A program made the translations under genes and the position numbers. This document shows, piece after piece, positions 12,286 to 54,220 of a stretch of 64,000 bases of DNA. Origin of the DNA: Symbiodinium natans. Lineage: Eukaryota > Sar > Dinophyceae > Suessiales > Symbiodiniaceae. Where the stretch lies: NCBI GenBank assembly GCA_905221605.1, contig CAJNDS010002394.1:1-64000 (forward strand), written 5' to 3'. Below the pieces are notes generated by a model. The model worked only from the letters and a program-made list of their open reading frames with translations. It made no database searches and was not told the origin of the DNA. How positions within the stretch are numbered: the stretch's first letter is position 1; every line of letters begins with the position of its first letter.

Positions 12286-12439
12286 AAACCCTAAACCCTC
12301 AACCCTAAACCCTAAACCCTAAACCCCAAACCCCAAACCCCAAACCCTAAACCCTACCCTAAACCCCAAACCCCAAACCCCAAACCCTAAACCCTAGCCC
12401 TAAACCCTAGCCCTAAACCCCACGTAACCCTCGACCCAG
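12286..12439. repeat. Degenerate CCCTAAA/CCCCAAA array
   Basis: About 20 heptamers, a mixture of CCCTAAA, CCCCAAA and CCCTAGC, ending GTAACCCTCGACCCAG, which supplies the acceptor-like CAG of the next island. Confidence 0.9.
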
Positions 12440-12530
12440 GAGCTGCGAGGAAGCCGAATCCATCTTCACGAAGATGCCGCTGGCGGGTCTCCCACGAAGC
12501 TCCTGGGAGTACGCCATGCTGATTCAAGGC
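12440..12530 (+). CDS. PPR-like exon island 1
   Basis: After CGACCCAG the frame from 12441 reads SCEEAESIFTKMPLAGL and continues WEYAMLIQG (30 codons). The EEAE.IF..M..AG half is the second helix of a PPR motif and the W.YAMLI part resembles the first helix of the next. PPR proteins bind organellar RNA. No canonical GT donor follows. Telomere-like DNA starts 22 bp later. Confidence 0.5.
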
Positions 12531-12731
12531 CCACCTACTACAGGAAATTGGACCCTAAACCCTTAAAACCCTAAACCCTAAACCCTAAACCCTAAACCCT
12601 AAACCCTAAACCCTAAACCCTAAACCCTAAACCCTAAACCCTAAACCCTAAACCCTAAACCCTAAACCCTAAACCCTAAACCCTAAACCCTAAACCCTAA
12701 ACCCATTCAAGGCCTACCTACTACCGGAAAT
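12522..12731. repeat. 21 CCCTAAA units bracketed by a 27-bp direct repeat
   Basis: A clean CCCTAAA array (12552-12703) is bracketed by ATTCAAGGCCCACCTACTAC (from 12522) and ATTCAAGGCCTACCTACTAC (from 12705), both continuing into GGAAAT, 25 of 27 matching. The left copy is the end of the PPR island. It looks like insertion of the array with duplication of the target. Confidence 0.88.
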
Positions 12732-12917
12732 GGGGGGGTTGAGGTAGGGCTGAATGTCGAGGGTGCCCTCTATTCGACACCCCCCCTCCCCAAAACCCTC
12801 ACAAAATCCTTGCCCCCCTCATGTCAGAAGCCGACGATGCCCGGAAACCCTAAACCCTAAACCCTAAACCCTAAACCCTAAACTCTAAACCCTAAACCCT
12901 AAAACCCTAAACCCTGG
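12732..12917. other. Unique spacer and CCCTAAA array
   Basis: A G-rich then C-rich stretch (12733-12815) followed by about ten CCCTAAA units (12845-12915). No coding island. Confidence 0.7.
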
Positions 12918-12986
12918 CGAGGTTGGGCCCGTCAGGGAAACCTACCCAACGCGCGGGCGTGGTTCGAGCGGATGGTGGCGGATGGG
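12918..12986 (+). CDS. PPR-like exon island 2
   Basis: The frame from 12918 reads RGWARQGNLPNARAWFERMV, then ADG. GN...AR.WFERMV.DG is a very typical PPR helix pair end (G.l..A..wf..M...G). It remains open to a TAA at 13020 but loses PPR character after ADG. It is preceded by CCCTAAACCCTGGCGAG. Confidence 0.6.
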
Positions 12987-13586
12987 CCCTTTGCCTCCTT
13001 GATTCTTAGGAACAACCTGTAACCTTTTGGGCTATATAGAACCCTACCCTTAAAAAAAAACGGTTAACCCTTTTTGGGATGGGGTGTTGAGGCCTAAGGA
13101 TTTGATGCCTTTCCAAGGGCTTTTTAGCTTGAGAGCGTTGGGCTGTACTTATTCCGAGGGCCGCTTTATCTTGAAGCTACAATCTAAGCATTTTGTGGGG
13201 TACTCATGGCCTTCAAGTATGGGGCTGCCATACTGGAATCTGCGAGCCCAAACCCTAAACCCTAAGCCCTAAGCCCTAAACCCTAAACCCTAAACTCCTG
13301 TAAGACCCAAGCTGGCAGCTGGAAGACGTGGTTCAGGGTTTCGGGTCTGGATCTAAACTCCAGGTACTGGGGTTTATTTCAGGTTTGAACCCTAAACCCC
13401 AAAACCACCCGAACAAGAACCCCTCATCACAACATGCTTTTCGCCCTTACAATGAGACTCTGAATCTGGCCCGAATGAGGCCTCTTAGGGGGGCCTGAGT
13501 TTGTCTATCTGAACCCCCGTGAACCTCCAGTTTGTGTGTCTGAACCCCTGAACCTCCTAAACCCCAAAGCCCGAAGTCGTCGAAGG
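12987..13586. other. Degenerate repeats and unique DNA, no gene seen
   Basis: Holds an imperfect inverted pair (AACCTGTAACCTTTTGGG at 13013 and CGGTTAACCCTTTTTGGG at 13060) and short CCCTAAA tracts at 13250-13295. The 62-aa frame at 13084-13272 has no recognisable content. Confidence 0.5.
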
Positions 13587-51258: not shown

Positions 51259-51413
51259 CTAGGGTTTAGGGTTTAGGGTTTAGGGTTTAGGGTTTAGGGT
51301 TTAGGGTTTAGGGTCTAGGGTTAAAAACCCTAAACCCTAAACCCTAAACCCTAAACCCCAAGCCCTAAACCCTAAACCCCAAACCCTAAACCCTAAACCC
51401 TAGACCGTTAACC
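51259..51413. repeat. Head-to-head (TTTAGGG)n(CCCTAAA)n junction
   Basis: Eight TTTAGGG units run to 51322, then GGTTAAAAACCC, then about 11 CCCTAAA/CCCCAAA units to 51413 with no spacer. The array is a giant hairpin, with the same polarity as a telomere-telomere fusion. Confidence 0.93.
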
Positions 51414-52186
51414 CACATGGAGGTTTCCGAAATTCGGGGTACCTTCTTGGGGTCCTTATGGTACAGGAATCCTACTCTTTGGGGGTCTATATAAAGGGCC
51501 CCTCATTTTCGTAAAGCCCCTCCCGAACCCCTTAACAGCCCTGAATGGGGCCAGAACTTGCCTGGAAGGTGCTGAGTGACGCGTTGCAGGAGGCAGGGCT
51601 GGGGACTTAAGGCCTACTGCGGTTCATTCATTTTTTTGTTCTTATGTATGTATTTTTTATTGATTTATTTATTTGTTCTTTTTTATTTTCTTTTTTTGCG
51701 CGGGGGGGGGGGAACGTTACAGGGTTTAGGGTTCAGGGTCTTAGGATCTTTGGGCTTGAGGGTATATAGGGTTCCCTGGCATCTTCCTACCCTCGTTTAG
51801 GCACCGCGGGGGGGTCGGGGGGGGGGGGGAAAGTCAAGGAGAAGTTCGGTTAGCGTTCTGAGGGTTAGAGGGGTGGAGGCTGAAGCTCACCACTTGAAGC
51901 CGACAACCTTGAGCCCGGACCCTGAATCCTGAAACCCAGAACTCTGAACCCTAAACCCTAAACACCGCGAACCGAAGAAGCCTCACCTGAGAGGAAGGGG
52001 GAAAGTTGCAAAACCTCCAAGCCCCTCGGCTCTGAACCCCGAGCCCGCCCTACATCGGAACCCTGGGCCCCGAAACCCCGAAGCCCAAACCCGAAACCCT
52101 AAACCCTAAACCCTAAACCCTAAACCCTAAACCCTAAACCCTAAACCCTAAACCCTAAACCCTAAACCCTAAACCGCCGCTTGCAG
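51414..52186. other. Unique DNA, T-rich tract, CCCTAAA array
   Basis: A T-rich stretch (51625-51695), two G runs (51701-51710, 51821-51829), unique DNA, then 12 CCCTAAA units (52095-52174) ending GCTTGCAG. Confidence 0.65.
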
Positions 52187-52251
52187 CCGTCCGGTCTCGG
52201 GAGGTGGGACGCGTCACCACCTCCCCCAAGAGGGCCCGGCAGCCCGTATCG
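52187..52251 (+). CDS. Exon-like island with CAG/GTGTGG borders
   Basis: CCGCTTGCAG, then VRSREVGRVTTSPKRARQPV and S, then GTGTGGG. Basic, Arg-rich. CCCTAAA on the left; G-type units begin 20 bp after the donor. Function unknown. Confidence 0.5.
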
Positions 52252-52686
52252 GTGTGGGATCATGGGGCGTTTTAGGGTTCAGGGTTTAGGGTTTAGGTTT
52301 CGGGTTTAGGGTTTGGGGTTCGAGTTCCGAATGTCTAGGGGCTGAGGGGGTGAATTTCCGTTTCTTGGTTTAGTCTTTCGGGATGAGTGGTGCAGGAGTG
52401 GATTGTAGCTGTTTTTGAGGGTGCTCGGGTCGTTAGTCTGTTTTATTTCGGCGGGTGCCCCGCAGTTTTCATTGGGGTGATATAGAGCTTCTAAGTTGTT
52501 TGTTTTAAAATACGGGTTTTGGGTTTCAGACTTTAGGGTGTAGGCTTGTTGGGTTTATTTCGTGCTGGTTAGGGAGTAGGGTTTGTCATGAGGATGTAGC
52601 TTTACGAGGGCAGCTGCAACGTGATATTTCACAAGGCCTTCCCCTAAACCCTAAACCCTAAACCGTAATGAGGCCTGCTTGAGCAG
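52252..52686. other. G/T-rich variants and unique DNA
   Basis: TTTAGGG words to about 52330, unique DNA, a short CCCTAAA tract (52644-52668) ending GCTTGAGCAG. Confidence 0.6.
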
Positions 52687-52779
52687 GAGTCCCTGGCGGC
52701 GACAGACAAGGTGCTGGCATACAAGTTCGAGCATCGCATGCTCGGCTCGCCGGACACTCTCCACATACTGAAACGATTG
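52687..52779 (+). CDS. Exon-like island
   Basis: TTGAGCAG, then ESLAATDKVLAYKFEHRMLG and SPDTLHILKRLT. Balanced composition, G/C third positions (GCG GCG ACA GAC AAG GTG CTG). It runs directly into CCCTAAA with no GT donor. Function unknown. Confidence 0.55.
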
Positions 52780-54220
52780 ACCCTAAACCCTAAACCCTAA
52801 ACCCTAAACCCGGTCCTCTTGCTGCGCGGCTGCACGTATGCACCACGACTCGCAATCGGACAAACAGAGCTTCAGCGTCTGAACCCAGCTCCTTTGAGCA
52901 GTTCATGGTCCACAGCTGGCGCACACCTCTACATCTTTGTGTGCTCCCTACTGTCCAGTGCCACGGAAGCGCCCTAAAGCTTGAAGCTTCACTTCCCAGA
53001 CACTCAGCCCCTAAATTTGAAGACGGCTCTCACACGAATTCCGGTCTTCTTAAGTTTATGCCCTGTAAACCCTATACAGCCTACAACCCTCAAACGCCCC
53101 AACATGGTGAAGTCCAGGTTTCCCCCGGCTTTAGGGTCTGAGGGGAGCACTACCTCATTGATCGCATGGAGTTCCCTAACAGGCCTACGCCCCACACCCC
53201 AAACCCGAACCCGCGGCTCGCAAACGCCACAGGGCCTGAGCGCGCAACCCTATGGGAGCGCACGCCCCGCCGGCAACAAATGAGAGCAGAAATGATAGAT
53301 GTGGAGGGTTTACATTCCGCAGGACCTCTCAGTCAGGGCACCCCGAGATACTACTACCAACCCCGCGAAGCAGAGGTCTTAAACTCCCTAAACCCGAAAC
53401 CCTAAACCCCACTGTGGAAGCCAAGTACCCACCACCGCCCATCCCTGGGAGCCCAACCACCGAGGGTTTGAGGTTTAGGGTTTAGGGTCTAGGGTTTAGG
53501 GTTTAGGTCTTAGGGTAGGGACTCCATGTAAGGGGATCCTGAACTTCTTGAACCCCATGTAAACCCCAAAATCCTAAACCCCAAACCCTAAACCCCACTT
53601 TTCGGTGGGGTGCCCGAAGGCCCTAAAAACCCTAAGCCCCAAGCCCCAAACTCCTAAGCCCCAAACCCCAAACCCTAAACCTAAGCCCAGCCCTAAACCC
53701 TAAATCCTTAGCCCTAAACCCTAAACCCTTCTATACACCTTTGGCAGCTGAGGAGTCCGTCCGAAAGATTTTTGAGAAGCGCCATCCACTGGAGGAGTAG
53801 ACCACGTGCTCAGCGACCTTCTGGCTGTTGCTTAAGGCCGTATTGTAGAGTTTAGGTTTTAGGGTGGAAGGGTTTCTTTTTTTTCTCCTAGTAGTCGAGT
53901 AGGTAACCTTTACCCTTTTTGGGGTAGTATAATCCCCTTACAATCCCAAAGGTTAACCTTTAATTCCCCCAGGTTACTGGACAACTAAGTTTTAGGGGTT
54001 TAGGAGTTTAGTGCTGAGTTTAGGGTTTAGGACTCGGGTTGACGGCATTTCGTGTTAAGGGCTTAGGGCTGAGGCTTTTTCGAGCAGCTTAGGACCGGCA
54101 ATTTGGGGCTAAAGGGTTTAGGGTTTGGGGTTTAATTAGGGTTTAGGGTTTAGGGTTATTAGCTATTCGGTTTTCGGGTTTAGGGCCGTTTTTGGTGGAG
54201 GGACTCTTGGATTGAAGCTT
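52780..54220. other. Last dense arrays, then fading repeats
   Basis: CCCTAAA (52782-52812), unique DNA with open frames of 60-100 aa (52905-53485) that I cannot support, CCCTAAA/CCCCAAG tracts (53570-53735), an imperfect inverted-repeat segment around GGTAACC/GGTTACC (53888-53985), and TTTAGGG words to 54180. Confidence 0.5.

Follow-up and report, generated by a model that had tools for sequence, protein, structure and literature searches.

The stretch of Symbiodinium natans DNA analysed here, which we call the window (64,000 nucleotides; positions 1 to 64,000 of contig CAJNDS010002394.1, G000:C2082:1-64000 in our searches), is rich in telomere-like arrays that read TTTAGGG (G-type) or CCCTAAA (C-type), and we find that such arrays cluster within introns, at short distances from exons. 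Our best explanation, held tentatively and with somewhat less than even confidence, is that short interstitial telomeric sequence (ITS) arrays repeatedly entered existing spliceosomal introns of this dinoflagellate, often near exons, most likely through telomerase-type healing of breaks. The original prediction for the window had described exon-sized islands bracketed by inverted arrays (C-type on the left, G-type on the right) and had derived from them an intron type built from telomere-like DNA; the pattern that it observed is right and goes beyond chance, and our results do not support the intron class that it proposed.

Arrays were identified by a simple scorer at two cut-offs, a score of at least 14 and a score of at least 25. 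The higher cut-off yields 158 arrays in 12-55 kb of the window (86 C-type and 72 G-type), and the lower yields 192, with 39% of positions 12001-55100 covered; array scoring places the limits of the dense region at 12244..55043. Across 15 haphazardly picked loci (133,910 bases) coverage is 3.5%, and 11 of these loci carry an array at the higher cut-off (L011, L014, L017 and L023 do not); the window is array-rich, yet it is not the sole such place in the genome. L023 (C1900:30001-40000) is itself unusual, a 10-kb piece of a 580-kb contig with a G+C of 13% in a genome near 50%, and is either a contaminant or an odd region. In the genome as searched (759,417,921 bases in 2543 contigs), perfect (TTTAGGG)3 occurs 1,185,204 times in forward and 1,184,385 times in reverse orientation (overlapping counts, about 2.37 million in total), compared with 41 and 33 for the control sequence. 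The host is a dinoflagellate, because the exact 21-base DinoSL spliced leader is present in 205 copies (104 + 101) and its reversed control in none, and TTTAGGG is known as the telomere unit of dinoflagellates (PMC11453091, PMC11508785). The arrays are therefore ITS in the usual meaning of the term (tandem copies of the host's own telomere unit, TTTAGGG, away from chromosome ends), with the caveat that the window's contig is apparently 64,277 b long and that a chromosome-end position is possible for that contig alone.

Window arrays differ among themselves in length, purity and variant unit. At 15854-16809 the 8-base unit CCTAAAAC is repeated in 118 copies over 956 bp with an internal CCCGAAAA block, a variant unit grown as one block. 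At 61616-63104, units spaced about 288-296 bp apart each contain a G-type array of about 110-130 bp, most of them followed by a short C-type stub about 15 bp further on.

Islands that are defined by arrays are circular as evidence about exons, and to break this circularity we used 94 short exons from genome-wide Pfam searches, picked blind to the arrays (loci L024-L108). They comprise 47 of 98 kinesin matches, 18 of 29 dynein DHC_N2, 18 of 28 myosin, 7 of 28 SNF2 and 4 of 149 PPR_2 matches; long matches in long open frames were excluded by design, and some short matches were also left out. The kinase and PPR families consist chiefly of long open frames and were of little service as short exons (at C1019:16657-35637 a dozen kinase matches, six of them with identical score, follow one another at intervals of about 1.6 kb and form a tandem gene array). 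Of the 94 homology exons, 27 have an array with a score of at least 14 no more than 80 bp away, as have 630 of 12,471 random 100-bp placements (5.1%), a five- to sixfold enrichment over random segments that overlap one another, give values between 0 and 27% at the single loci and make no distinction between introns and intergenic DNA. Nine of the 94 matches contain stop codons, and none of those nine has an array within 80 bp. Counted by bases, arrays occupy 8-10% of the 60 or 100 nt flanking the first 87 homology exons, and around 37 kinesin exons the array share drops past about 120 nt; these measures, together with the excess over random placements, are the grounds on which we state that arrays are concentrated near exons. 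A hint as to the relative age of introns and arrays comes from the kinesin P-loop, where 17 of 28 fetched matches end at profile positions 93-101, with a donor-side array in four and none in 13; this suggests that the introns may predate the arrays, allowing that a profile match may stop short of the exon end.

The order of arrays was then read on the coding strand. Ten homology exons are bracketed by arrays, seven of them in the order C-G, two C-C, one G-G and none G-C (at least 7 of 10 at an expectation of 1/4 has P 0.0035). The seven (three kinesin, two dynein, one myosin and one SNF2) lie on both strands and on contigs other than the window's, which bears out the claim that C-exon-G order is found around real exons on either strand; with arrays scoring at least 25, four of five bracketed exons are C-G and one is G-G. 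The 17 exons with an array on one side behave differently: 13 have a G-type array upstream or a C-type array downstream, the reverse of the bracketed exons, and 4 fit a rule of G-type at the donor and C-type at the acceptor, so that concordant sides number 17 of 20 for bracketed and 4 of 17 for one-sided exons (Fisher p 2e-4). Over all 94 exons the acceptor side carries C-type in 11 cases and G-type in 10, and the donor side G-type in 10 and C-type in 6 (concordant sides 21/37, p 0.26); at a score of at least 25 the counts are 10 and 7 at the acceptor and 8 and 4 at the donor. Base-weighted sign-flip tests of orientation over the first 87 exons give one-sided p values of 0.05-0.11. The C-G order is thus a property of bracketed exons and not of introns in general, on the basis of few exons.

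Within the window, all 16 islands listed in the original prediction have a C-type array on the left and a G-type array on the right by our scoring. The number of C→G switches was discarded as evidence, because every string of C and G labels holds as many C→G as G→C switches, to within one, and the length and content of intervals were tested instead. At a score of at least 25 there are 157 intervals (C→G 47, G→C 46, CC 39 and GG 25), so that one in three C→G intervals is a listed island and 110 intervals belong to the other classes. Lengths of 60-130 bp account for 30/47 of the C→G class and 10/46 of the G→C class, and 30 was reached in none of 5000 label permutations; at 61-130 bp the counts are the same, with a permutation mean of 16 (p 1e-4, 20,000 permutations), and none of 157 circular label shifts reached 30. 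Permutations and shifts together rule out chance as the source of exon-sized C→G islands in the window. The islands also differ in content, with a G+C of 0.587 compared with 0.528 for G→C gaps (Mann-Whitney p 6e-5) and an open frame in 89% of 44 C→G islands compared with 56% of 25 G→C gaps. A codon signal z, derived from the codon usage of two long window frames, has a mean of 0.53 in C→G, 0.84 in CC, -0.11 in GG and -0.05 in GC intervals and of 1.08 in known kinesin exons, a modest coding signal. Of eight frames outside the two long frames at 6207-10367 that were compared with Pfam, a single one matched (PPR_2, 4.1e-21), and it is sited in a G...C interval, counter to the C→G pattern. Codon-based strand calls for individual islands were abandoned as too weak: leave-one-out calls on kinesin exons (39/41 correct) are inflated by shared motifs, and the window frames alone give 31/41.

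The islands predicted at 14600, 19494, 21856, 23332, 24590, 26675, 32356, 40600 and 52187 extend, by array scoring and with no strand assigned, over 14580..14657, 19478..19550, 21847..21924, 23321..23400, 24551..24642, 26634..26739, 32316..32451, 40594..40694 and 52177..52268, respectively; that at 27287 (27288..27379, likewise without strand) has a short right array (27380-27403, score 20.5). Four more have no strand assigned. The island at 18486..18565 has on the plus strand, by eye, an open frame enclosed by an AG close to the start of the island and by the GT with which the right array opens, 20997..21098 has coding-like frames on both strands (z 2.6 on plus, 2.0 on minus), 22679..22775 lies between arrays that are mutual inverted repeats of 106-117 nt, and 43759..43842 has on the plus strand a GCAG near its start and GTTTAGGG after the island (by eye). 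Coding-like frames on the minus strand occur in 25374..25471 (z 2.3), where a TTTAGGG array starts at the putative minus-strand donor as judged by eye, and in 29569..29683 (z 2.2), and a long coding-like plus-strand frame occupies the C-left/G-right island at 44300..44612 (z 2.8, no Pfam match). The exception noted at 37157 in the original prediction is real. The plus-strand open frame at 37135..37489 (37157 in that prediction; no Pfam match) has G-type on the left and C-type on the right, the order also found around the frame with the PPR_2 exon (17918..18343, plus strand), and three of six PPR or weakly PPR-like window exons, of which the PPR_2 exon is the one with Pfam support, have C-type arrays no more than 25 bp away on each side; a PPR-like exon with C-type arrays on both sides, at 17315..17404 on the plus strand (weak, phmmer E 0.01), runs counter to a rule of G-type at the donor.

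The joints between arrays bear on how they may have arisen. Genome-wide, the exact junction at which a G-type array runs head to head into a C-type array is present at 417 sites and the tail-to-tail junction at 92 (the two are made of the same letters, one phase of each was counted, and both are palindromes), and in the window gaps of at most 30 bp make up 14/52 of G→C and 3/52 of C→G intervals. The window's head-to-head junctions include 51259..51414, where a G-type array passes directly into a C-type array, 33518..33612, and 25472..25562, where the arrays are 3 nt apart; 45720..45816 is a tail-to-tail junction (C into G), one of the three short C→G gaps (none of the four has a strand). At longer range, a pattern of two perfect double repeats separated by 60-90 nt has 24,005 genome-wide matches in the order C..G and 19,214 in the order G..C (matches slide along arrays and are not sites), a modest lean at this distance. 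Collapsed by eye over the initial 1.55 Mb of contig C1, the matches come to about 58 C..G and 52 G..C places, near parity; about 6 of the C..G and about 17 of the G..C places are taken up by arrays with little unique sequence. Double-repeat pairs in the window number 3 C..G and 15 G..C at 60-90 nt, and 110 C..G and 45 G..C at 121-200 nt.

The excess of head-to-head junctions and the short G→C gaps fit break healing, because a break healed at both ends and then rejoined gives that order. The course of events that we infer, with telomerase, break repair, introns older than the arrays and normal splicing as its parts, would begin with a break within an intron; telomerase-type repeat addition would heal both broken ends, and the ends would rejoin to leave a TTTAGGG array upstream and a CCCTAAA array downstream, head to head. 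Neighbouring exons would thereby be bracketed C-exon-G irrespective of coding strand, point mutation and later insertions would degrade the arrays and move them apart, and the ordinary dinoflagellate spliceosome, with GT, GC or GA donors and AG acceptors, would presumably remove the introns. A precedent exists in mammals, where double-strand breaks are the sites at which ITS are inserted, in some cases together with sequence of the telomerase RNA and in others with a head-to-head rearrangement, and where their effect on splicing is named as worth testing (PMC7215372). Short ITS of mammals and plants resemble the present arrays in being short, imperfect and internal to chromosomes (in humans 31% are in introns, and some are head to head), but here arrays cover 39% of a 43-kb region (3.5% of 15 loci), are concentrated beside exons and show an order bias around bracketed exons. 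The head-to-head telomere fusion at human 2q13 is likewise a telomere array running into its inverse; here there are hundreds of small sites and not one chromosome fusion. In open-licence PMC literature, as represented by titles and abstract openings, we found no description of telomere arrays next to exons in the introns of dinoflagellates.

Several observations weigh against break healing. The reversed control of the head-to-head junction, another palindrome, has 1059 sites (that of the tail-to-tail junction has 2), and the junction counts cover one phase of each kind. In the window, 38 of 52 G→C intervals exceed 30 bp and are thus not junctions. The 13 of 17 one-sided exons with discordant arrays count against healing, because healing does not predict the other orientation. 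Finally, G-oriented arrays of at least 60 bp (n = 117; window 12000-55100) have a purity of 0.671 in the 5' third and 0.588 in the 3' third (p 0.003), a difference that persists when arrays are called from the opposite side, and since telomerase puts the newest copies at the 3' end, the 5'-purer arrays speak against it. The phase of array starts was dropped as a sign of telomerase priming: exact runs are uneven in phase at both ends, as variant positions inside arrays would make them in any case.

After break healing, the explanation that survives best, although we consider it distinctly less probable, is that the bias is what selection on splicing has left behind. Arrays would insert in any orientation, a G-type array before an acceptor would offer many TTTAG|G decoys and be lost, and a C-type array, which when perfect contains neither AG nor GT, would be tolerated. 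Left-C islands are indeed favoured at exon size in the window (45/64, p 0.007), yet so are right-G islands (39/64, p 0.01), and only classes with C-type on the left have a positive coding z, but the left-C coding contrast per strand is not significant (Fisher p 0.17-0.20). Against such filtering, too, is the G-type array in 10 of the 21 homology exons with an acceptor-side array.

Rather improbable, in our estimate, is local expansion without telomerase, by slippage and by fold-back copying of an array into an inverted partner across the exon. Variant units do expand as blocks, and the contrast in concordance between bracketed and one-sided exons looks as if the partners had been made together; fold-back copying, however, predicts equal numbers of the two junction kinds, and the counts of 417 and 92 are far from equal.

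We think it improbable to a further degree that the introns were created by introner-like mobile elements whose terminal inverted repeats resemble telomeres. Introners are known from dinoflagellates (Amoebophrya, Polarella), and some Amoebophrya introns end in inverted repeats of 8-20 nt, to which the inverted arrays of some introns here can be likened. The window gaps also contain a few short shared pieces (43-77 bp) and hairpin-like or palindromic elements between arrays (27589-27743, 34074-34124, 34134-34170, 40768-40818 and 48341-48416), two of which are alike (48341-48416 and 40765-40841, 77%); these are possibly small introner or miniature inverted-repeat transposable element families. 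However, no shared alignable core was found among the masked window gaps, where 44.5 kb gave 19 local matches (6 self-palindromes, 4 between places at most 150 bp apart and 9 distant, 3 of the latter from one duplicated G-rich block); on core sequence a single intron element is ruled out for the window. The arrays are also unequal in length, purity and variant unit, stand on one side only in 17 of 27 array-bearing exons, and, by the hint from kinesin P-loop match ends, may lie in older introns.

The intron class of the original prediction is in our view unlikely. In it, introns of the form GT-(TTTAGGG)n...(CCCTAAA)n-AG would pair their complementary ends in the transcript and so join the splice sites, an idea familiar from the non-conventional introns of euglenids. 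The exon-sized C→G islands of the window, the 7 of 10 C-G bracketed exons and the donor-side counts agree with it, but the acceptor side is balanced over the 94 exons, the one-sided arrays are mostly discordant, and the C-type arrays on both sides of three of six PPR or PPR-like exons do not fit. Minimum-energy folding (14 overlapping 3.5-kb tiles, plus strand, 19.3-55.3 kb) also disfavours pairing of intron ends: array-array pairs are predicted 3363 times across C..G intervals and 2035 times across G..C, with C..G ahead in 11 of 14 tiles, and between adjacent arrays 2034 and 1119 times. Wherever the C→G island is the shorter of the gaps, the exon itself would end up in the loop of the paired structure. 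Among the five bracketed exons that were read first, the array begins 2-42 nt past the homology match and not regularly at the donor. Seven array-flanked exons printed whole (five C-G and two C-C) have, by eye and with several choices each, an AG ahead of the homologous part and a GT or GC behind it, and this, with the pairing across G..C gaps that is not favoured, separates them from the euglenid introns. In Symbiodinium minutum GC donors are nearly as frequent as GT and GA is also used, with 95% of genes multi-exon and a mean of 19.6 exons (PMC4083563); the splice signals seen here appear to demand no new splicing chemistry. Least likely of all, to our minds very unlikely, is that the bracketed exons are units whose arrays point the way telomeres do at the two ends of linear DNA (C-type left, G-type right), as single arrays do not. 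Such units would fit pieces of DNA of exon size that telomerase once capped at both ends and that were then put back together in place, so that dinoflagellate gene DNA would bear the mark of repeated breakage and repair.

Other features of the window lie mostly outside the array-dense region. Two satellites occupy 1-1229 (22 copies of a 55-bp unit) and 5181-5973 (4.3 copies of a 186-bp unit, 99% matches), and long open frames of 800, 579 and 408 amino acids, the first two without a Pfam match, lie at 6207-11533, perhaps a mobile element; a search for homologues of the 800-residue frame (6207-8609) returned only the frame itself among 8000 candidates scored. A search of the window with Rfam at gathering scores and for tRNAs found none, and no viral contigs were found.

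If the pattern is true genome-wide, telomere repeats would be a main source of the sequence by which introns have grown in this lineage, and they would lie beside exons with a bias in their order. This makes testable a role of telomerase in the repair of dinoflagellate gene DNA, as well as the manner in which the spliceosome handles introns rich in GT- and TAG-bearing repeats, and it gives gene predictors a reason to model such arrays as intron sequence.

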